A DNA stretch of 45,931 nucleotides from the IMG/VR virus record IMGVR_UViG_3300049212_000020, positions 1 to 45,931 of that record. One strand, 5' to 3'. The position numbers and the translations under genes were made by a program. Position 1 is the stretch's first letter. Every line of letters starts with the position of its first letter. Under the pieces are notes generated by a model. The model worked only from the letters and a program-made list of their open reading frames with translations. It searched no databases and was not told where the DNA came from. Positions 21,674 to 36,031 of the stretch are shown piece after piece. The stretch comes from a virus.

Positions 21674-24229
21674 CTAGTTGCGGATACGGCGCTTAGAGAA
21701 GATAGCACTCGTTAACCTTGCCGAACGGATCAACTGTAACTGATAGTTCTCTTGGTCCTGGGTCAGCGCTTCGACCGGCGGTGGGACCGGGGGCGGTGGT
21801 TTCTCAGGAGTCAGCCAGCCCGGCTTCCCGCAGCCGCGAGGCACGTAGACCAGGCGGGTCCGACCGCCGTTCAAGCCCATGCACAGGTAGCGCAGGCAGT
21901 TGTGAACCAGGACGCCGTTGGCGAAGAACTCGTGCTCCCCCTCAACGGTCAGGTCGTGGACGTGAGCGCTGCCGGATGGTGCGACGAGTCGCACAGACGC
22001 GGGAACAGGTGAGCTTTCGCAGGTACTTGTTCTTCGTGAACGTCTTCCCGCACTCAACACAGGTTGCTGGGACATCGTCGACGCCCGAAAGATGGCGCGC
22101 TCTGGACTTGCAATATCCCGAACAGAACTTCGGCTTCCTGTCCCTGGTCTTGAACGGCTTCCCGCATCGCTGGCACTGGTATTCACGCGCTGTGCGCTTC
22201 TTCCAAATGTCCTTGCTATGCTCGACGTGCCACGCCCGGCCTTCGGGTGATCGATGCCAAGCGACTGCCAACCCCCTGATGGCATCCAGGTGGTCGAGTT
22301 TGCCTCCACCGTGCATGCGGCTGTGCTCTGAGGGGGAGATGGCTTCGAGATTGTCGAGAGAGTTGTTCCGGCAATTCCCGTCTCGGTGGTGAATCGCGCA
22401 GCCTTCCGGGATTGGTCCGTGTGCTGATTCCCATATTGCCCGATGCAGCAGCTTTCCTCGGCGGTTTCTGAAGTACCCAGCATTGGCGCCGCTGTACTCG
22501 TAGTACTTTCGCCCCTCGAATACGACGATGTTAGGCATGTCGCGACTATATCCGAGTACCGCAAGCTATCAAGGCGAGCCCAGCCCCGATTCTCGGTCCA
22601 GAACCGATGGCCTGCGGTGGCGGTTACGGCGTGACCATTCGAGGTCTCGACGGTGAACACCGGCTTGGGAGCCGTCGAGCGCCACGCATCAGTGACACGC
22701 CGATAGCCCTTCCGGGTCAGCACCATGTCGCCCACCGCGATGTCCTCAATCGGGCGGGGCCCCGTAGCGGTTTCGATCAGGGTGCCGCTCACAAGGCAGT
22801 CTGGCCCCTCGTCGTCTTTCTTCACCACCCCGCGCGCACCCTGGTAGACGCCCTCCTCGTACGAGCGGTAGGACAGCATCTGCTGCCTCAGGAGCTGCCC
22901 CCCGGATGCCTTCGAGGCGTTGATCTTGATGAGGCCATCATCGAGGTACGTCTGCACGCGGCGGATGCCGGGCTCGTGGCGGTTGTAGGGCAGGATGATG
23001 CCGCGGTAGGACTTGATCTCCTGCCGGGCCATCTCCTCCTTCATCTGCCAGGACAACGACTTGCCGGTGGTCTTCTCGGTCTTGTTCGAGGCGATGTCGG
23101 GGATGAAGCCCTCCAGCGTGCGCCCGCGCAGGTAGTGGGCGATGCGCTTGAAGTCGTAGGACAGGATCGTCCGGTTCATCCGGATGAAGTGCACGACCTT
23201 GATGAGGGTCGGCTGATCCTTCGAGATCGCGGCGAACAGGATGCCGGTGTCGTGCGACTCTTGGCCAGCGCCGCCCGGATCGTAGGCGCACCACAGGTTG
23301 TCATCCGGATGCACCTCGTAATCCGGCGCGATCATCACCCGCTGATCGTCCCAATGCTTGCCGTAGATCAGCAGCCGATCGGCATAATCCACGGTTCCGA
23401 GCATGCGCAGGTCGAAGTCTTCGTCCGAGAACGCACCGCGCAGGCGTTCGCGCTCGCGCTTGTCGGCCGCATCGCCATCCGCTTCCCCCATGCGGAAGCC
23501 TTCCCAGTCCGGCTCCTTGGGATCCTCGCAGGTCTGGATGAAGCGCATCAGGGCGACGTTGGCGGTCGTTGGGGTTGCGCCCCACAGCAGCCATCCGCCC
23601 CCCGCCTCGCGCACGATCTGCTCGTCCTTGTTGGCGTCGAGCAGGCGCGGGTAGAGCTCGTTGAGCAGGTTCAGGTCGCCCTCGGCCTCGTCCAAGATGA
23701 TCCAGGACAGGGCCTGGCCGGCGCGGCGTTTCCACGATTCGGGGTCTTTCGAGACGCCGAAACGGATGGTGTTCCCGTTCTTCATGTCGATCTGCTTGAG
23801 GGTCGGAGCGCCCGCGCCGTGCGTGTACCAGACCTTGGCGATCTCCTGGGCGGGGATGAACGGTCGACCCTCGAATCCGCGCAGCTCGCAGTCCTTCAGG
23901 AGCTTCTTCTCCCACGGATCCTGCAGCTGCTCGCGCGACGGCGCCAAAATCAGGCCGGTGGTGGGCTTCGAGACGGTGCGGGTCGGGTGGAGCCGCCTGG
24001 CTGCCGACGCGGCCTCGACGCCCAGGAGCGCCGACTTGCCCTTGCGGTTGGCGCCACCGATCCAGCGGTAGCGGGCCTTAGAGACGTAGCAACGATGCTG
24101 CGTCGGCCAGGGCGTGAAGTTGAGCACCGGGTCCAGCCGTCGCTGGATCAGGTAGTCCAGCTCATCTTCGTCAACGTTGGAGTTCGATTTCAACCGGTTT
24201 CGCCTGGAGGATTTGGTCGATCTGTTCAA
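21674..24229 (-). CDS. terL: Terminase large subunit, interrupted by an intein
   Basis: An 851-residue precursor; without the intein (residues 478-777) the terminase is 551 residues, normal length. The ATPase domain has a Walker A-like GGANRKGKS (residues 58-66) and Walker B IILDEAEGD (177-185). The RuvC-like nuclease begins at about 311, with D317 in AYDPGG. The intein sits between D477 and C778 in the DEGPD|CLRY motif, the site of a late catalytic aspartate of the nuclease. It cuts and packages DNA into procapsids with the small subunit and portal. The ATG at 24229 overlaps the small subunit by 59 bp; a TTG at residue 13 behind GGAGG is an alternative start. Confidence 0.85.
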   Translation of the reverse strand: MNRSTKSSRRNRLKSNSNVDEDELDYLIQRRLDPVLNFTPWPTQHRCYVSKARYRWIGGANRKGKSALLGVEAASAARRLHPTRTVSKPTTGLILAPSREQLQDPWEKKLLKDCELRGFEGRPFIPAQEIAKVWYTHGAGAPTLKQIDMKNGNTIRFGVSKDPESWKRRAGQALSWIILDEAEGDLNLLNELYPRLLDANKDEQIVREAGGGWLLWGATPTTANVALMRFIQTCEDPKEPDWEGFRMGEADGDAADKRERERLRGAFSDEDFDLRMLGTVDYADRLLIYGKHWDDQRVMIAPDYEVHPDDNLWCAYDPGGAGQESHDTGILFAAISKDQPTLIKVVHFIRMNRTILSYDFKRIAHYLRGRTLEGFIPDIASNKTEKTTGKSLSWQMKEEMARQEIKSYRGIILPYNRHEPGIRRVQTYLDDGLIKINASKASGGQLLRQQMLSYRSYEEGVYQGARGVVKKDDEGPDCLVSGTLIETATGPRPIEDIAVGDMVLTRKGYRRVTDAWRSTAPKPVFTVETSNGHAVTATAGHRFWTENRGWARLDSLRYSDIVATCLTSSYSRGESTTSTAAPMLGTSETAEESCCIGQYGNQHTDQSRKAARFTTETGIAGTTLSTISKPSPPQSTAACTVEANSTTWMPSGGWQSLGIDHPKAGRGTSSIARTFGRSAQRVNTSASDAGSRSRPGTGSRSSVRDIASPERAIFRASTMSQQPVLSAGRRSRRTSTCESSPVPASVRLVAPSGSAHVHDLTVEGEHEFFANGVLVHNCLRYLCMGLNGGRTRLVYVPRGCGKPGWLTPEKPPPPVPPPVEALTQDQENYQLQLIRSARLTSAIFSKRRIRN
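21899..22798 (-). mobile_element. Intein in terminase large subunit
   Basis: A 300-residue intein (TerL residues 478-777). Block A begins with C478 (CLVSGTLIETATGPRPIEDI), block B contains TATAGHRFWTENRGW (about residues 536-550), block F is VHDLTVEGEHEFF and block G ends VLVHN with C778 as the first extein residue. These are all residues needed for class-1 splicing. Between blocks B and F, about 195 residues are Ser/Thr/Arg-rich without any LAGLIDADG or HNH motif in this frame; the same DNA encodes an HNH endonuclease in a different frame (21942-22538). Insertion in a catalytic motif of a conserved enzyme is typical for inteins. Confidence 0.9.
21942..22538 (-). CDS. HNH homing endonuclease nested in the intein, other frame
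   Basis: A 198-residue protein on the same strand as TerL but in a different frame, wholly inside the intein. Residues ~25-76 are an HNH homing endonuclease domain: H50-H51, N59, N63 and H72 in the IHHRDGNCRNNSLDNLEAI context. Two C-terminal zinc ribbons follow (C122/C125/C139/C143 and C160/C163/C178/C182). Its ATG lies just after the intein's block B region; its TGA falls inside the codons for block F (TVE). The last ~9 residues (arginine/proline-rich) are an out-of-frame reading of the intein C-terminus. The ribosome site is weak. It would cut intein-free terminase genes to promote copying of the element (inference). Confidence 0.85.
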   Translation of the reverse strand: MPNIVVFEGRKYYEYSGANAGYFRNRRGKLLHRAIWESAHGPIPEGCAIHHRDGNCRNNSLDNLEAISPSEHSRMHGGGKLDHLDAIRGLAVAWHRSPEGRAWHVEHSKDIWKKRTAREYQCQRCGKPFKTRDRKPKFCSGYCKSRARHLSGVDDVPATCVECGKTFTKNKYLRKLTCSRVCATRRTIRQRSRPRPDR

Positions 24230-24815
24230 CCGGGACGTTGTGCTTGAGTGCGAGTCGTTGCTTGAGGTCGGTTATGGTCGGCCGTTTGTCGCCATCTCGC
24301 GCCAACTCCATCTTGTCGCGATGCTGCGCATCCGACTGCATGAGCCGCGCCCGCTCCTGGGTGATCGTGATCATGCGCTGTTCCTTCGCGGACAGCTGCT
24401 CGCGCAATTGTTGCAGAATCTCCTTCATCTCACTCAGGTGGTGGAACGACGAGTTCTGGAACTGCTGGATCTTCTGGAGAATCTTCCAGATTTCACCAGC
24501 CGCACCCACGCGATTGCCGGGAATCTCCCGAATCTTCTCTTTCATCTGCTGGATCAGCTCGTTCTGCTGCTCGTAGAGTCGGCGGTGCTCGAAGAACAGC
24601 TCCTCCTCGGGCGTGCTGAGGTAATCCACCTCCGCGCGCTCCTTGGTCCCGCCCTTCGCTGACGTGCGCTTGCAGAAGATCGCCATCTGTTCCAGGCGTT
24701 CCTTCATCTTCCGGTGATCTTTAGCGAGAGTCTTTATCTCATCCGTCATCTCAGCGATCGCGTCATCAGCGGTTTTATCGCTGTTTTCTGGGACCTGCTG
24801 TTGTTCTGCCATCAT
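24171..24815 (-). CDS. terS: Probable terminase small subunit
   Basis: A 214-residue (or 213; two ATGs in a row at 24815 and 24812) charged, coiled-coil protein directly upstream of, and overlapping by 59 bp, the large subunit. Residues ~20-165 are almost entirely Glu/Lys/Gln-rich helix. The C-terminal ~40 residues contain a TITDLKQRLALKHNV segment suggesting a small helical DNA-binding unit. Its role would be to recognise the packaging site and stimulate the large subunit. Assignment is by position and coiled-coil character. Its promoter would lie in the 27-bp gap shared with the divergent Maf-like gene, and the mRNA may be nearly leaderless. Confidence 0.6.
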   Translation of the reverse strand: MMAEQQQVPENSDKTADDAIAEMTDEIKTLAKDHRKMKERLEQMAIFCKRTSAKGGTKERAEVDYLSTPEEELFFEHRRLYEQQNELIQQMKEKIREIPGNRVGAAGEIWKILQKIQQFQNSSFHHLSEMKEILQQLREQLSAKEQRMITITQERARLMQSDAQHRDKMELARDGDKRPTITDLKQRLALKHNVPVEQIDQILQAKPVEIELQR

Positions 24816-28601: not shown

Positions 28602-29891
28602 CCCCTTCTCCTCCCACGCCTTCACATACCGCCACACCTGCTGAAACGGTAGGTCGTGGCGGTTGGCTATCTCTAGGACGCTCAAGCCCAGCTCATCCCG
28701 ATGCCCAAAGTACAGCGGCAGGCAATCCATCAGGTTGTTCCATCGCCTCGCCTCATCGCTGATCGTGCGCCTGTCAGGCATCGATGGATCCAACATAGGC
28801 TTGTAGAGGTCGATTCCCGGCCTACTGAGGCACACCAGGCCCCTAAACTTCCGTTGGTGCCGCTTGTCCTTGTCCATGTTCGATAGGGCCTCTACGGTCA
28901 CGGAAACGGCTTCCCTGAGGCGCTGCTCGTCCATCAGGTCTGCGGTATCGTGGCTGGTATGGTACTCACTAAAGGGAACCCGACTCAGGCTCACGGTAGC
29001 GATCTCATACCCTGCTGAATCCCAGCACGTCTCATCGTTGCCGACAACGCTCCTGAACGGTGCCTCCCTCCATGGGAACCCGGAGTCCTTCAGGGCTCGC
29101 ACGTAATACTGATCAATTGGTGCATCCCCTGTGAAGCTGTGCTGCAGGGCTAGGGGGCCTTGAGTACCCAGGCTCTCCAAGAACACCCCGCTATGCAGCT
29201 TGGTGTCCTGGAAGCGGTCCAGGTAGAAGATCGAGTGATAGTGCTCAGGTCCTATGATGAGCCTGTAGCCCAGCTCAGCCTCCTGGGTCATCAGCTGCCG
29301 CATCACCTCGATACCAATGGCCACGCCTGACAAGTCATCGTTGGCACAGCCCGGATGGCAGTTGTGGGCATTGATGAGGATATCGATGTCCTGCTTACCC
29401 GGCTTATGGAACTCCAACACCTTCATGGTGCCTGGCGTCTTGGTCGTCCTCAGCTCGATGTGGTATGCCTCACGGTCCTTGATGCTGTCATAGAACCGCT
29501 TGGTGACTGAGAACCCCCAGTCCTTGACCCAGTTCTTATACAGCCAGTCACAGTGGTAGATCAGCGCGTCATCGTACTCGGCACTGTAGTACAGGTGCTT
29601 CTTCAACTCCTCGCCACCAATGCCTGCAACGAATGGCTCGCTGTAGGCGCAGACTCCCAGCGGATGAGCGTTGCCGTCGTAGATCAGGTTGCCTGCGTTG
29701 TCGTGGATCGTGGCCTTCTGGCATTCCCACTTCTGCGGGAGCACCCAGCCATTGACCTCTGAGCCTGACTCAAACTCATGCACCTGGAACGGTAGCTCCT
29801 GGCACAGCAGCTCAGTCACCTTGTCCAAGCCATCGCACACAACGCCGCTGCGATAGGGGCTCAGCTTGCGGATCAGATCAACCATCGACAT
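28590..29891 (-). CDS. DUF4910 aminopeptidase-like protein (sugar cassette)
   Basis: A 433-residue DUF4910-type protein, a family found in polysaccharide and flagellin-modification loci with an M28-like zinc-peptidase fold. Visible metal-site candidates are H176, H179 and D185/D186 (INAHNCHPGCANDDLSG), an EHYHS segment near 215 and a GNDETCWDSAG segment near 280. The last ~50 residues look like a winged helix (LGLSVLEIANRHDLPFQQVWRYV). The reaction of the family is not established. ATG 29891 has a GGAGA ribosome site and overlaps the upstream stop by 14 bp. It is the last gene of the ~15.6-kb early operon. Confidence 0.8.
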   Translation of the reverse strand: MSMVDLIRKLSPYRSGVVCDGLDKVTELLCQELPFQVHEFESGSEVNGWVLPQKWECQKATIHDNAGNLIYDGNAHPLGVCAYSEPFVAGIGGEELKKHLYYSAEYDDALIYHCDWLYKNWVKDWGFSVTKRFYDSIKDREAYHIELRTTKTPGTMKVLEFHKPGKQDIDILINAHNCHPGCANDDLSGVAIGIEVMRQLMTQEAELGYRLIIGPEHYHSIFYLDRFQDTKLHSGVFLESLGTQGPLALQHSFTGDAPIDQYYVRALKDSGFPWREAPFRSVVGNDETCWDSAGYEIATVSLSRVPFSEYHTSHDTADLMDEQRLREAVSVTVEALSNMDKDKRHQRKFRGLVCLSRPGIDLYKPMLDPSMPDRRTISDEARRWNNLMDCLPLYFGHRDELGLSVLEIANRHDLPFQQVWRYVKAWEEKGLVG

Positions 29892-31446
29892 AGGCCGTCT
29901 CCAAGCACGAGAACCATACGTGTCCTTCCCACCCGTTCTTCCCCTTCAGCTGGTCATGCCAGATGCCATCGCATTCATAGCCTGCCTTCCTCAGCGCCTT
30001 GCAGCTGCCGACGTTGGACTCGTACGCACCAGCATGGATGCGGTGCAGCTTCAGCTCCTGGAACGCCAGCTTGGTCGCTAGTCGTATCGCTTCAGTGGCG
30101 AAGCCTCGACCCCATAGCTTCTTCTCGCCAATAAAGTATCCAACGTCTGCGTATCGGTGATGCCAGTTAATGCCACCCACCTTAATGTTGCCGATGTGAG
30201 TTCCGGACTCGTTCTCAAATATGCCCAGCAGATGGTTGGATTCGCTCCGCTGCATTCCCGAGACGAATCTCCTGATGCCGTCGAGCGTCTGGACATGAAA
30301 GCGTGACTCCAAGTACTGGTTGATCTCTGGGTCATTAAGCCAGTCCACATACCGCTCGGTGCAATCGCTGAGCGTTAGTGGACGCAGGCGCACCTTCTTG
30401 CCCTTGATGGTGAGCGTGGGCTTAGCTGGCGTATCCACGCCCATCGCCGTGTACTCAGGCGTATAGGTGATCGCTTGATGCAGCCGCTCGGGGCTGGTGA
30501 CAAACCGCATCCCAGGCCTCAGCTCCTTGTTGATCACCTTCCCATCGCACCACACCTCAGCGACCAGGACCGTGCCCGTATGGCTGGCGACAGTGATCTC
30601 GTCCTTGCTGATGCGTACAATCAGCCCATTGGCGTACGGGTGGAACGCGCCGTCGATCGAATCAGAACACCGCAGCTGCACCGTGCGCCCATTGATGGTC
30701 GTATGCGCCCCTGGATAGGGCTGGTCGAACGCATTGATGAAGTTGGCGATCTCGACTGAGCCCCAGTTCCAGTTCACCCACCCGTTCTCGCTGGTCTTGA
30801 GCCTCGGGAAGTACAGCGAGTCCTTCTCGGCAATGTCGCCAGGCAGGAAGATCGCGCCCTTCCTGATGGCGAGTAGGAACTCCTGGATCATCTCCAGCTC
30901 TTGCTTGCCGCAGTCCTCGAACCAGTGATCGGGATAGATCGCGGTGTAGCCCATGTCGTACGCCCGCTGCATGACGATAGCGCCGTTGTCGTACACACCC
31001 TGCTTGGTCTGTGGCGTCACCTGCTGCAGGCAGCAACCCCATTTGATCTCGCCATTCATAATCGCCCAGGTGTAGTGCGCTCCTCCACGGTAGCGTGGCA
31101 GTGGGATGCCCATCACATCGATCAGGCGCCCACCGAAGACATCCACGATCTCCGGGCTGAACTGCCAGGCTTCACCCAACCCAAGGCCCAGCGTGGTGGG
31201 CGTGATCTCCTCAAGCCCCAAGTCCCGATTGATGTCGTCGGTGACGTGGTACCAGTCCATGCCCGCTGCGACCAGATGCTGGCCAAGCGTCAGCTCGCCA
31301 TCGATCACCTCGGCCTCCTGCCGTGGGCTGGTGTAGATGTCCACATGCAGGTTCAGCTCTCTGAGGAGCTTCGCGACCTTGATCAGCAGCGGTGAGCCAC
31401 CGAACAGCATGACGTGGTCAGGATAGGGGATGGTCAGCGTGGTCAT
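29878..31446 (-). CDS. Formyltransferase-like / GNAT acetyltransferase fusion
   Basis: A 522-residue fusion. Residues ~1-215 resemble the N-terminal formyltransferase domain and ~220-310 its C-terminal barrel (methionyl-tRNA formyltransferase type, used also on sugar amines). Residues ~350-520 are a RimJ/RimL-type GNAT N-acetyltransferase (RLRPLTLSDC start, WGRGFATEAI acetyl-CoA loop). In the formyltransferase active site the usual Asn and His (N-x-H before PxLPRYRG) are replaced by D110 and M112, while the later Asp (D153 in YDNGAI) remains. It may therefore be catalytically altered. ATG 31446 overlaps the HisF-like stop (ATGA). Its likely role is N-acylation of an amino sugar. Confidence 0.8.
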   Translation of the reverse strand: MTTLTIPYPDHVMLFGGSPLLIKVAKLLRELNLHVDIYTSPRQEAEVIDGELTLGQHLVAAGMDWYHVTDDINRDLGLEEITPTTLGLGLGEAWQFSPEIVDVFGGRLIDVMGIPLPRYRGGAHYTWAIMNGEIKWGCCLQQVTPQTKQGVYDNGAIVMQRAYDMGYTAIYPDHWFEDCGKQELEMIQEFLLAIRKGAIFLPGDIAEKDSLYFPRLKTSENGWVNWNWGSVEIANFINAFDQPYPGAHTTINGRTVQLRCSDSIDGAFHPYANGLIVRISKDEITVASHTGTVLVAEVWCDGKVINKELRPGMRFVTSPERLHQAITYTPEYTAMGVDTPAKPTLTIKGKKVRLRPLTLSDCTERYVDWLNDPEINQYLESRFHVQTLDGIRRFVSGMQRSESNHLLGIFENESGTHIGNIKVGGINWHHRYADVGYFIGEKKLWGRGFATEAIRLATKLAFQELKLHRIHAGAYESNVGSCKALRKAGYECDGIWHDQLKGKNGWEGHVWFSCLETAYVDG

Positions 31447-32117
31447 CCATACCTCACGGGAATGCCCTTGTTGCGCAAATAGGCTCGCGCACGCAGGGGG
31501 TTCGAATCGGTGAAACAGAACATGGCTCCAGATGCACACGCATCAGCGCCAGCGTTGAAGGCGTCGACCATGTGCTGGTAGTGACCACAGCCACCCATGG
31601 CGATGATCGGGCACTTCAGGCTCTTTCGGACGTTGCTGATGGTCTGCACATCGTAGCCCTTGCGGATGCCATCGCGGTCCGTGGCATGCAGCACCACTTC
31701 CCCAGCGCCCATGTCCCCGAGCTCCTTAACGGGCTCGGCGTAGTCGTAGCACCACACCACAGCCTGTTGCCCGAAGTGCTCGGCAATCGCCGGGATCAGC
31801 TGGTACATGGTCCGGATCACCACCTTCTCAGCGCCGGCCTTGATCAGCGTGGCCGCATCCTCCTCGGTCCTGATCCCACCACCCACGGCCACGGGGATAA
31901 AGCACACCTTGCCGATCTCCTCGATGACATCGAGCAGGGGCTGGACGCCCTTGTCAGGCTGGATGTTCAGGATCATCAGCTCGTCAGCGCCGTTGTTGTT
32001 GTGGATCCTCGCTTGCGACACCGGATCACCCACATCTCTGGGGTTGGCGAACTGCGTGGTCTTCACCACACGGCCGTCCTTCAGCAGCATGACTGGGATC
32101 ACACGCTTTTTGAGCAT
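31443..32117 (-). CDS. HisF-like protein of sugar amidation (WbuZ type)
   Basis: A 224-residue (beta/alpha)8 protein aligned without gaps to the start of HisF (MLxKRxI...KDGRVVK) but shorter than histidine HisF (~250). The catalytic aspartate at HisF position 11 is L11 here, while the second one is kept as D147 (ATDRDG). Loss of D11 makes a histidine-pathway role unlikely and matches HisF homologs of O-antigen loci that pass ammonia to an N-acetyl sugar amidotransferase. The amidotransferase is the gene directly upstream, overlapping by 19 bp. The usual glutaminase partner HisH is missing. Confidence 0.85.
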   Translation of the reverse strand: MLKKRVIPVMLLKDGRVVKTTQFANPRDVGDPVSQARIHNNNGADELMILNIQPDKGVQPLLDVIEEIGKVCFIPVAVGGGIRTEEDAATLIKAGAEKVVIRTMYQLIPAIAEHFGQQAVVWCYDYAEPVKELGDMGAGEVVLHATDRDGIRKGYDVQTISNVRKSLKCPIIAMGGCGHYQHMVDAFNAGADACASGAMFCFTDSNPLRARAYLRNKGIPVRYG

Positions 32118-33256
32118 TCCCGATACCAGCTATCCCTGTCATGGGTTGGTTCTGCATCAGGCAGGTTGAAGTCTGGCTCGTGAGGGTAGATAGCGTGCTG
32201 TGCAACGATGGTGTTGAACTCAGCCTCGGAGATACCGACGTAGTCTAGGAAGATGTCGAGCGATGGCGGACGGCGCCCCTCATTGGCTGCGATCACAGCC
32301 CGCGCCTCCTCGGTAGTCATGCGCCCGTTGCGGATGTCGATGGCGCAGTTCTGGGACACACGCGAGTACCCGCGCTTGAGAAACTTGAGGTAGTCGCGAA
32401 CGCCCTGCATTGCGCATTCAACCTTATCGTAGGTCCAACGTCCGCTCGGCATGCCCTCCACAGCGTCACCCTTCCATCCAAGCTCTTGCTCGATGATCTT
32501 CACCTGCTCACGCACATCCCACTTGATGAACGATCCCAGGCACACAGACCTAACGCCCAGCTTCTGTAGCTCTGAGCGCGGCGGGTACTGGAACGGCTTG
32601 AGATCACGGTAGTCAAAGTCGAAGTCGTGCTTGATCATCCCAGCTATGTCGTCGGCCGTGATACCGAGGTTGATGAACCGGTTGAACCGTGTCTCGTCTA
32701 CGTTCTCCTCTTCATCGTAGCCGAAGTACGACGTGTAGTCGCTGGACCGTTCACCCCAGAAGATCAGCGGCACCTGAAACTTCAGGGCTATGTGCATCGG
32801 GAACGAAAATACACCTACGTGACACGACCAGCAGAAATCGGATTTGCGGATCAGCGCCTCAAGCATGGTCCGCTTCACCAGTTTCCAGTTGGCAGTGAAT
32901 GAGAGCGAGTCCACCCCTAGGCGCTTGATCGTCCGCTCCATATTCTTGTTCACGCCGTCGCGCATGAACCCGTGATCGTAGCGGACCACGAGCGGCTTGA
33001 TCTTGTAGTTCGTGACGAGGTACCAGAGGGCGAAGGTTGAGTCCTTCCCACCACTGAACGGAATAATGCAGTCGTAGTCGTGTCTGCCTCGGTACTGCTC
33101 GATCAGCGCGTCCAGGTCCTTCTTCTTGGCGTCCCAATCATCTGCTTCCTTGCGCTCGTGAGCCCTGCAGATGTTGCATACGCCGTCATGGCCAATCTCT
33201 AGCGTCTCGTAGGTGATAGGGAGCAGGCACCGGGCGCAGCGTTCCATGTCGTTCAT
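32099..33256 (-). CDS. N-acetyl sugar amidotransferase (WbpG/PseA family)
   Basis: A 385-residue PP-loop ATPase: SGGKDS at residues 68-73, with an N-terminal zinc-type cysteine set (C7, C10, C27, C30). This is the family that converts an N-acetyl group on a sugar or nonulosonic acid to an acetamidino group, using ammonia delivered by a HisF-like partner, encoded next. I start at ATG 33256, which overlaps the upstream stop (ATGA) behind GAGG, not at the GTG two codons earlier. Known relatives: WbpG (O-antigen), PseA and LegX-type (flagellin glycan). The exact substrate is not deducible. Confidence 0.87.
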   Translation of the reverse strand: MNDMERCARCLLPITYETLEIGHDGVCNICRAHERKEADDWDAKKKDLDALIEQYRGRHDYDCIIPFSGGKDSTFALWYLVTNYKIKPLVVRYDHGFMRDGVNKNMERTIKRLGVDSLSFTANWKLVKRTMLEALIRKSDFCWSCHVGVFSFPMHIALKFQVPLIFWGERSSDYTSYFGYDEEENVDETRFNRFINLGITADDIAGMIKHDFDFDYRDLKPFQYPPRSELQKLGVRSVCLGSFIKWDVREQVKIIEQELGWKGDAVEGMPSGRWTYDKVECAMQGVRDYLKFLKRGYSRVSQNCAIDIRNGRMTTEEARAVIAANEGRRPPSLDIFLDYVGISEAEFNTIVAQHAIYPHEPDFNLPDAEPTHDRDSWYRECSKSV

Positions 33257-34068
33257 GCCCACGTCCTCGGGTCGTTGTCTGTGCAGACGCCCATGTCGAG
33301 CATCGGTACGTACCGCTCGGTCCCCAGCGGTTCACGCTTGGCTATCTCTAGGCACTCATCCAGCTCGCTGATGGTGGTCGGCCCGATGATCACCATGTCC
33401 GTGGTCTCGTTCTCTAGTCCCGAGCGAAGGGCTAGTGTCTTGAGGTTTACACCGAATGCTGCGGCGACCTTCTCTGCCGCCTGGACACGCTGCTTGAGGG
33501 TATCGTTGGGGCATTCCTCGCCCGCTAGGACGCCCTGAAGCAGGGCGCTGCGCGCAATCCGTGTCTGCTTGGGGGCCCTTGCTTCAGGTCCATACCGGTA
33601 TGGATAGGGTGCATAGCACCTGCGCAGAATGTTCCATTCGTGCTGGATGTAGTCGAAGTGGATGAACGCTGCCGTCGCGCTGTCGCTGTCGTCGTGTTCG
33701 AAGTAGATCGATGCGCCACGGATCCAGTTGGCCGGCCAGCCGATGTGCCTGGTCCAGTTGTGGTAGAGGAACACCACATCCGCACGCTTCGGGTCGCCCC
33801 GCAGCAGATGCTGAATGCTCTGCGCCGCCTCAGCGACATCGCCACGTGTCTTCGTGAAGATGCGCGCAGAAAGATTGTTGCACTTGAGCACGTGCCCAAT
33901 GATGTTCTCGGCCTGGCCGTAGGTTGGGGCGGTGTCGAAGGTCCGAATGCCAGCGTCCCACGCATGCTTGATGAGCGCGATGGCATCCTCGGTGTTGACC
34001 TCACGCTTGTTGCGCCCATACGGCAATCCCCCCAGCCCAGCCGTCCCCAGGATCAGTTTCTCAATCAC
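33253..34068 (-). CDS. Aldo/keto reductase (sugar cassette)
   Basis: A 271-residue AKR-family oxidoreductase: catalytic tetrad candidates D45 and Y50 (FDTAPTYG), K73 (FTKTRGD) and H103 (LYHNW). Shorter than the usual ~310, as seen in AKRs of sugar and flagellin loci. The start is GTG 34068, one base inside the TAG of the aminotransferase (TAGTG), preceded by a perfect AGGAGG at 34074-34079 with five-base spacing; the in-frame ATG at 34104 lies inside the aminotransferase and is less likely. It probably reduces a keto-sugar or aldehyde intermediate with NAD(P)H. Confidence 0.85.
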   Translation of the reverse strand: MIEKLILGTAGLGGLPYGRNKREVNTEDAIALIKHAWDAGIRTFDTAPTYGQAENIIGHVLKCNNLSARIFTKTRGDVAEAAQSIQHLLRGDPKRADVVFLYHNWTRHIGWPANWIRGASIYFEHDDSDSATAAFIHFDYIQHEWNILRRCYAPYPYRYGPEARAPKQTRIARSALLQGVLAGEECPNDTLKQRVQAAEKVAAAFGVNLKTLALRSGLENETTDMVIIGPTTISELDECLEIAKREPLGTERYVPMLDMGVCTDNDPRTWA

Positions 34069-35291
34069 TAGTGCCTCCTGAACACAGCAGTGTTGATCTT
34101 GCACTCCAACCGCTTCTCGACCGAGTGATCGCTGATCGCCTCAGCGACAACGGCCATGGCGTCGTCGTAGGCCTTCATGGTCTGCTCCATGGCGTCCATG
34201 TGGTGCGACAGGCTGATGAACTGCCCCGATGCCAGCATGACCCCACGGCGCAGTAGCTCCTGGATGAACAGGGTCTGCCGGGCCGGGTTGTCCCATTCGA
34301 TACTGGTGTAGTGCGGTAGGCCGCGCATCCGGGTGTGGTCGGTGAGGTTGTGCGTGGTCGCAGCCTTGGTGTAGCCGTCGATCAGCGACTGCCCCACCAC
34401 CGCCTGGTTGTCCCAGAACCAACCATCCTCCATCTGCTCCAGGTTGTAGAGCGCCGCCTTCATCGCCGTGACTTCTGCGAAGTGCGTCCCCGACAGATGG
34501 GTCTCGCTCCAGCAGTCCATGATGTCCTTGCGCCCGCAGACCAGGCTGATGGGCCAGCCGTTGGCCAGAGCCTTGCCTGCCGTCGTCAGGTGCGGCGTGA
34601 CGTTGTACACCTGCTGCGCTCCACCCGGCGCCATGCGGAACATGGTGATCGTCTCGTCGAAGATCAGGACCGTCCCGGTATCCTCACAGAGCTTCAGCAC
34701 CCGCGGAAGGTACCAGTCATACGGCGCCGTCAGCGATACCGGCTCCAGGATGAACGCTGCCACATTCTTGTAGAGCAGGTGGTCCTCTAAGGACTCCATG
34801 TCGTTGTAGGGCACGGAGACGGTCAGGTCCCGCACGCACTGTGGTACGCCCTTCTTGTCGGCGTAGTCGGCATTCAGGAACACGTCCTGGTAGCCGTGGT
34901 AGCCGCAGCGGACGATCTTCTCGCGTCCCGTGTACGCACGCGCCAGACGCACCGCTGCACTGGTCGCATCAGTTCCCGTCTTCATGAAGCGCACGGCCTC
35001 ACAGGACGGGATCATCGACTGCACCTTCTCAGCCAGCTCGACCTCAGTCCACGACGGCAACGGCCATGCGATGCAGTCGCCAGACAAGCCGCGCTTGTGT
35101 CCCAGCGTGATCGCGCCCAGGCCCATGGTCCAATCGATGTACCACTTGCCATCAGAGCCCAGCACGCGGCATCCGTCACCGTCCATGATGAACTCGGGGC
35201 CAAATCCATCGCAGTAGCGGTAGCGGCCCTTGCTGCTGACCTGAGTCCCCATCGGGACCAAGCGGTCGTGCCGCTCGCGCATCGTCGTCAT
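34068..35291 (-). CDS. Class III aminotransferase (GSA-aminomutase-like)
   Basis: A 407-residue PLP enzyme of the glutamate-1-semialdehyde aminomutase/class III group: FDETITMFR at residues 211-219 (D212 contacts the pyridine), PLP lysine K240 in TAGKALANGWP, and the phosphate-binding TGTDAT at 105-110. Members of this subgroup recur next to SpsF-like cytidylyltransferases and AKRs in surface-glycan loci, where they aminate or isomerise a sugar intermediate; the haem-pathway role is unlikely in a phage. ATG 35291 overlaps the upstream stop by one base (TGATG). Confidence 0.85.
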   Translation of the reverse strand: MTTMRERHDRLVPMGTQVSSKGRYRYCDGFGPEFIMDGDGCRVLGSDGKWYIDWTMGLGAITLGHKRGLSGDCIAWPLPSWTEVELAEKVQSMIPSCEAVRFMKTGTDATSAAVRLARAYTGREKIVRCGYHGYQDVFLNADYADKKGVPQCVRDLTVSVPYNDMESLEDHLLYKNVAAFILEPVSLTAPYDWYLPRVLKLCEDTGTVLIFDETITMFRMAPGGAQQVYNVTPHLTTAGKALANGWPISLVCGRKDIMDCWSETHLSGTHFAEVTAMKAALYNLEQMEDGWFWDNQAVVGQSLIDGYTKAATTHNLTDHTRMRGLPHYTSIEWDNPARQTLFIQELLRRGVMLASGQFISLSHHMDAMEQTMKAYDDAMAVVAEAISDHSVEKRLECKINTAVFRRH

Positions 35292-36031
35292 CACTGCAAC
35301 GCCTCCATGTACTTGCGCCATCCTGCATTCACCCCGCACTTGCGGATTAGTTCAGCGCACCGCGCCAGGTCTGCTGGCGTATCGACTGAGAATTTGACGT
35401 TCTCCGTGGAACAGTACGACGGGTTAATGAAACCATTCATGCACTCGCGCATGTAGGTGGTCACATGTTCGCGCTGCCGTTGTTCTTTCGCCATCTCGTT
35501 TGAGCGCATGAGTGCATCGTAGCTAAATACCTCCACGTCCGATCCATCCGGATCATTCGTCTGGCCAACGTAGGCCATGCCGCTGCGGCGGAACGTCTGA
35601 AATAGCTCACCAATCAGCCAATGGTCAACGAGCGGGCAGTCACCGGTGATGCGGACAATGCCAGCCGTCGCGCCGTATTGAGCGAATGCCCACGTTGCTG
35701 CGTCCGAGAATCGCCTGAGCACATCCGACTCATTACCGCGGAACAAACGCACTGGGATTCGGAGTCGCGCCACCTGCCTGAGAAGGAGGCCATTCGCTAC
35801 GTCGTTCTTGTCTAAGCGCTCGAAGAGAGTCGGTTCATTCTCGATGTGGTGCGCAAGCGGGACGTTCTCTGGAGTGTCGGGAATGGCTACCACAACCAAC
35901 CTCGGGCCCGAATCCAGCACCCGATCAATCACATGCTCAATCACCGGCTTCCCACACAGATCCGCCAGCATCTTCCCCGGAAATCGCTTCGATCCCATGC
36001 GGGCCTGGATGATGACCGTTGCGTCAATCAT
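35291..36031 (-). CDS. SpsF-like cytidylyltransferase
   Basis: A 246-residue nucleotidyltransferase of the CMP-sugar synthetase/SpsF family: N-terminal ATVIIQARMGSKRFPGKM (residues 4-21), ITGDCPLVD around residue 120, and a VKFSVDTPADLA segment near the C-terminus. It would activate an acidic sugar as CMP-sugar for transfer. Start ATG 36031 overlaps the upstream stop (ATGA); an in-frame ATG at 36097 lies inside the upstream gene and encodes a non-conserved extension. It is the first enzyme gene of the sugar cassette. Confidence 0.88.
   Translation of the reverse strand: MIDATVIIQARMGSKRFPGKMLADLCGKPVIEHVIDRVLDSGPRLVVVAIPDTPENVPLAHHIENEPTLFERLDKNDVANGLLLRQVARLRIPVRLFRGNESDVLRRFSDAATWAFAQYGATAGIVRITGDCPLVDHWLIGELFQTFRRSGMAYVGQTNDPDGSDVEVFSYDALMRSNEMAKEQRQREHVTTYMRECMNGFINPSYCSTENVKFSVDTPADLARCAELIRKCGVNAGWRKYMEALQ

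Follow-up and report, generated by a model that had tools for sequence, protein, structure and literature searches.

Inteins are known that carry a nuclease in their own reading frame, that have none, or that are split. Fractured genes, in which a free-standing homing endonuclease lies between the parts of a split intein, were reportedly recognized by Dassa in 2009. AceL NrdHF is such a fractured gene, with a split intein and an intervening free-standing homing endonuclease (PMC7891396), while the inteins of mycobacteriophage terminase large subunits (TerL) are described by Kelley (2016; PMC5050341) as bifunctional: they are able to splice, their homing nucleases are active, and relatives with an empty site exist; no mention of an out-of-frame nuclease was found in the passages considered. 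The only out-of-frame precedent found in the full-text literature is the ShiLan insertion, an HNH gene within the DNA methylase gene of an actinophage (Arsenault, Gosselin & Gogarten, 2025; PMC11855218), which is mentioned in a genome announcement (PMC12613952).

The locus described here lies on the minus strand of a viral sequence of 45,931 nucleotides (IMG/VR record IMGVR_UViG_3300049212_000020; hereafter the window), in an ORF of 851 aa encoding TerL together with an intein (21674..24229). The N-extein (22799..24229, aa 1–477, ending in EGPD) matches the terminase large subunit family phrog_2 in a profile search (E = 8e-14) and is followed by an intein of 300 aa (21899..22798, TerL aa 478–777) and by a C-extein beginning with CLRYLCMGL (21677..21898). 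The intein matches the Pfam families Intein_splicing (E = 2.9e-13) and Hint_2 (E = 3e-8), and alignment of its junctions places it in the TerL nuclease motif D-x-x-D-A-x-R-Y (PD/CLRY, the solidus marking the junction). None of the splicing blocks is missing: C1, TxxH (aa 61–64), VHDLTVEGEHEFF and LVHN/C are all present. The Hint splicing domain is in two halves: the N-terminal one (22529..22798, aa 1–90) holds blocks A and B, the latter reading TAGH (T61 to H64, 22607..22618), and the C-terminal one (21899..22006, aa 265–300) holds blocks F and G; C1, T61, H64 and Asn300 are invariant over 32 relatives. With C1, TAGH, HN/C, a cysteine at position +1 and a predicted Hint fold, the window intein is, to judge from its sequence, complete and class-1-like. 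It is not a bifunctional (maxi-) intein, as neither Pfam nor AlphaFold places a domain in the own-frame spacer between the two halves (22016..22528, aa 91–261), and it is neither a split intein nor part of a fractured gene, TerL being a single open ORF. A 546-aa antisense ORF over TerL (22607–24247, plus strand) is probably just a side effect of GC-rich codon usage. Elsewhere on the minus strand, ORFs matching an acetyltransferase (phrog_1249) and an aminotransferase (phrog_2736) at 29881–35339 possibly form a sugar-modification cluster.

The spacer is the out-of-frame reading of a second gene, an HNH endonuclease ORF of 198 aa plus a TGA stop codon (21942..22538, minus strand), across which the intein frame contains no stop. 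Its ATG occupies 22538–22536 and its first base lies 1691 nt past the TerL start, an offset of +2 (the −1 frame) relative to TerL and the intein, while its stop codon (21944–21942) is spelled by the codons of block F (...TVE...). The protein matches HNH_3 (E = 4e-17) and phrog_15471 (E = 2.5e-37). The HNH_3 catalytic domain (22317..22454) scores above the curated cut-off of PF13392, and two zinc ribbons, each with a CxxC pair, follow: the cysteines of the first (C122, C125, C139 and C143; 22110..22175) are invariant in 28–35 relatives and those of the second (C160, C163, C178 and C182; 21993..22061) nearly so. Catalytic HH, N and H residues, like the CxxC residues, are invariant across the HNH relatives, in keeping with the family assignment by profile match. 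In the preliminary description, complete splicing blocks, the lack of an endonuclease in the intein's own frame, a shifted-frame HNH protein having two zinc ribbons and its own ATG, a stop within block F and an open, Ser/Thr/Arg-rich spacer had all been proposed from the letters of the DNA, and each of these points is upheld.

Structure prediction agrees with this partition. An AlphaFold model of the window intein, computed from an alignment of 32 nested inteins, has a pLDDT of ~95 for the two Hint halves (87–94 in the C-terminal half) and below 50 for the spacer, while that of the HNH protein reaches 95. The models are accordingly confident for the Hint fold encoded by one frame, apart from its disordered spacer, and for the HNH protein encoded by the other. 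Foldseek relates the intein model to the gp41-1, DnaB and RecA inteins (best E ~1e-6), and gp41-1 and NrdJ-1 are among the closest solved splicing domains. The nearest solved relative of the HNH by sequence profile is I-HmuI, although the Foldseek match of the HNH model to it is weak (E = 0.1). I-HmuI and the free-standing phage HNHs of phrog_15471 and HNH_3 belong to the same family as the window protein and combine an HNH with zinc ribbons.

The locus shares with the ShiLan insertion a zinc-finger HNH in a shifted frame, an open host frame and a patchy, mobile distribution; indeed, the positions stated for ShiLan (GTG at nt 18–20) correspond to the same +2 phase (PMC11855218). The ShiLan insert, however, has no splicing domain and is thought to be retained in the host protein, whereas here a complete intein, with its blocks and predicted Hint fold, is present in TerL, and the layout occurs in many phyla. 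As in fractured genes, the nuclease would be a separate product encoded between two Hint halves, and some relatives of the window HNH are arranged in that manner, but the host gene here is one unsplit ORF overlapped by the nuclease in another frame. Host gene and empty-site relatives are shared with the mycobacteriophage inteins, which differ in residing in the ATPase domain and in having themselves been tested for cleavage (Kelley, 2016; PMC5050341).

The family was surveyed with searches blind to the intein frame, namely tblastn of the HNH and scans with HNH alignments. Among GenBank phages, tblastn led to the terL genes of Tetrasphaera phage TJE1, Acinetobacter phage Highwayman and Rhodobacteraceae phage LS06-2018-MD07, as well as to an unannotated gut phage contig; in all four an unannotated HNH lies at +2 within an intact TerL intein, and in the three annotated phages TerL is the sole call at the locus. 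Published phage genomes in which the terL annotation conceals a shifted-frame HNH gene are seen at L003:1900-3948, L004:1819-4101 and L005:2338-4524. An HNH-alignment query was needed for IMG/VR, since the window HNH as a single-protein query returned one distant locus only; it gave 80 loci, of which 56 are nested, 12 split-like and 12 free, the nested and split labels deriving from profile hits. Together with the window and GenBank, this makes 61 nested loci, all at +2 and without a single intein-frame stop. A GTDB scan added 17 nested loci, including some from Frankia, Bacteroides, Rhizobium, Patescibacteria and Thermoplasmatales. All 78 loci returned by an intein-based scan are nested, although its ranking is biased towards inteins of equal length. 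Because N-block alignments proved too diverse for searching, a 28-aa C block was chosen as a query independent of the spacer; 68 of the 80 loci that it found are nested at +2 and eight are mini-inteins, and two initially classed as long without an HNH do carry one at +2.

In total, the nested layout comprises 164 distinct HNH sequences in 196 loci (the former being the safer count, as the loci include overlapping pieces of the same contig). They come from four GenBank phage records, from viruses of IMG/VR and from the genomes of bacteria and archaea, span 31–70% GC and have an offset of +2 in every case. Neither an in-frame HNH fusion nor an intein-frame stop was found in the 196 nested loci. 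Far from being a single oddity, the nested HNH-in-intein forms a large class that recurs, always in the +2 phase. In a single genome, two frameshifts could produce the same picture, and the nested ORF might then be a relic, left when two indels that compensate each other moved an HNH domain out of the intein frame, or merely an artefact of sequencing. Against an identical phase in 164 distinct sequences, zero in-frame fusions, an HNH with its own start and stop and the normal protein-level constraint on its frame described below, the probability of such an origin is close to nil, and the homologues already refute it. A sequencing frameshift, named beforehand as an observation that would undo the proposal, is excluded because many independent homologues have the identical phase, which likewise rules out sequencing error and a fused-frame origin of the layout; the fused homologues named alongside it are absent from the 164 distinct sequences. 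The suggested comparison with related terminase inteins found the +2 layout in every nested relative.

Split TerL inteins, with relatives of the HNH between separate TerL-IntN and IntC-TerL ORFs, are seen at nine loci (L023, L031, L034, L052, L054, L062, L075, L087 and L091). At least one further locus labelled split (L102:3937-5501) looks nested, with a 1-nt shift in block B separating the N half; it may be a split intein in the making or reflect an error in the sequence.

Across the family, chance does not account for the open intein frame. When synonymous codons were permuted within each HNH, preserving protein and codon usage, 269.9 intein-frame stops were expected in 140 distinct nested HNHs and none was observed; the sequences are related, so the trials are not independent, although they span 31–70% GC with a mean HNH identity of ~39%. 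The unused third frame of the same genes contains 2231 stops against 2314 expected, and the frame equivalent to that of the intein contains 74 against 74.9 in split relatives and 89 against 91.9 in free ones. Stop avoidance is therefore restricted to nested members and absent from free and split ones. For the window alone, only 1.55 stops are expected by synonymous shuffling (P(0) = 0.11), and an open intein frame at this one GC-rich locus is unremarkable, in contrast to the overwhelming depletion in the family. The constraint that the first frame must not stop, put forward in the preliminary description for this locus, is thereby substantiated for the family as a whole.

The two frames, whose comparison had also been proposed, evolve differently. 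Divergence at the three codon positions of the HNH frame is 0.44/0.39/0.65 in nested members and 0.43/0.37/0.65 in free and split ones; on this measure, the HNH frame evolves like that of a normal protein gene, alike in nested and free members. The amino-acid identity of the intein frame over the spacer is 0.207 in nested members, no higher than the 0.204 of equivalents in which that frame is untranslated, which indicates that the spacer is held only to the absence of stops.

The constant phase is most likely to be explained by survival. In phase 0, the stop codon of an intact HNH gene would terminate TerL, and in the +1 phase the gene would bring about three times as many stops: in free HNH genes, the mean number of stops is 4.9 in the phase equivalent to the host's and 15.0 in the remaining one, which would leave +2 as the survivable phase. 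Each free gene of phrog_15471 or HNH_3, unlike the nested ones, has 1–15 stops in the frame that nested members keep open. A different account, in which the layout arose once and the constant phase reflects inheritance, concerns the origin and not the mechanism. Besides the phase itself, the presence of one splicing-domain family at mostly one TerL motif and the correlated divergence of HNH and intein (Mantel r = 0.31, p = 0.001) speak for it, but the correlation is weak, the layout is found at further TerL sites too, Walker B among them, and well supported branches of the HNH tree force at least nine changes between the nested and other states; a single origin appears less likely than not. 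Within TerL nuclease motif III, the insertion points are spread over four or five neighbouring codons; in tandem inteins they lie at Walker B. Three TerL ORFs (L226:1547-4984, L236:385-3513 and L273:1-2685) carry two tandem inteins near Walker B, separated in L226 by four residues (CDEL), and the upstream intein of each pair also has an out-of-frame HNH match at +2. Nested inteins at TerL sites beyond nuclease motif III (for example G/CDVARFGDD and A/STPGG) are found at L178:5001, L201:3027 and L126:4744.

Since the tree intermingles nested HNHs with free and split ones, gains, losses and exchanges of the HNH probably all occur. At one and the same site, a mini-intein of 132 aa (L225:3689-4084) and a nested intein of 331 aa (L226:3092-4084) share N halves that are ~88% identical; the mini form still contains the HNH tail DNA, a sign that an in-frame deletion may have removed the HNH. 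Invasion of a mini-intein by a free-standing HNH gene, as originally envisaged, is likely but unproven, given the interleaving of states and a pair that resembles loss. A broader reading, held tentatively and at somewhat less than even odds, is one in which overprinting is a general route for intact homing genes into inteins and essential ORFs, was taken many times and likely forms a bridge from mini-inteins to split (`fractured') inteins. At +2, the one phase sparing both genes, the nuclease would keep its own start and stop, and host-frame stops would be fewest and, except for those after Met, synonymously removable.

The intein appears to be mobile, since the terL gene of Acinetobacter phage Highwayman carries one where its near-identical relatives Acba_21 and MRABphi22 have an empty site. 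The terL exons of Highwayman and Acba_21 differ at 15 of 1302 positions, seven of which lie within 12 nt on the 3′ side of the intein, where the native Leu codon has become Cys, and the first kilobase of the gene after terL is identical. This pattern fits a recent acquisition with a short co-conversion tract. Among 50,697 phage records, the DNA of the Highwayman intein occurs only in Highwayman's own, while most of its exon 1 occurs in 49, Highwayman included (the empty site was checked in two). In the Acinetobacter phage BP10 (Obolenskvirus), terL is uninterrupted and a free HNH with 51% identity to the nested HNH of Highwayman adjoins terS. The free relatives adjoin terS or terL in several phages, and HNH proteins are known parts of phage packaging machines (Kala, 2014, as cited in PMC12613952), so that the HNH could conceivably be a packaging cofactor placed in terL for co-expression and not a homing nuclease. 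Near-identical relatives of Highwayman that lack the HNH, mini-inteins without it, its location inside inteins at a conserved insertion motif and its closest solved relative by sequence, I-HmuI, leave very little probability for that role.

As regards expression, an ATG candidate lies near the HNH start in 69 of 78 nested members, and Shine–Dalgarno-like sites precede 44 of 80 candidate ATGs compared with 86 of 282 control ATGs (p = 6e-5). No clear Shine–Dalgarno site is present upstream of the ATG in the window, and a few nested members, such as L097, seem to lack a good start codon. The HNH stop typically arises within block F, where TAT-GAT or GTT-GAA supplies TGA and TAT-AAT supplies TAA. 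As the offset at every locus is exactly that of a −1 shift, the HNH might instead be made as a fusion to TerL and IntN by programmed −1 ribosomal frameshifting, but only 7 of 75 loci contain an in-phase slippery heptamer, HNH-frame stops lie close upstream, the N-terminus of nested HNHs aligns with free-standing genes having their own start, and the enrichment of Shine–Dalgarno-like sites favours internal initiation; frameshifting is consequently very unlikely. In the absence of a conserved slippery site among the 75 loci it was rejected.

The reading preferred here, to which we assign a probability of about 85%, is that of a mobile homing TerL intein with an endonuclease that is encoded by an overprinted gene and translated on its own. 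Translation in the TerL frame would yield TerL with the intein, the Hint halves (aa 1–90 and 265–300) of which would fold around a disordered spacer of ~170 aa and splice out to leave a working TerL. A second initiation, at the internal ATG of the same transcript, would start translation in the −1 frame and give an independent HNH protein that resembles I-HmuI and bears two zinc ribbons. This protein would cleave terL genes that lack the intein, at the nuclease-motif site (the target that we infer from the insertion position), and the break would be repaired by copying in the complete intein together with its nuclease. Selection for TerL function would keep the intein frame open while the HNH frame experiences ordinary protein-level selection. 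What can be read from the sequences is the layout, its phase, the avoidance of stops, the protein-level conservation of the HNH, the conserved splicing residues, the predicted folds and the empty-site polymorphism.

Nested inteins may be viewed as a common fourth intein layout that annotation pipelines have missed. If this is true, many `mini-inteins with long disordered linkers' would be mobile elements with a hidden nuclease. The family provides a large natural data set on overlapping genes, for which the free-standing relatives are a clean null, and a testable path to the origin of split inteins. For protein engineering, it offers natural evidence that a Hint domain may tolerate an unstructured insert of ~170 aa.
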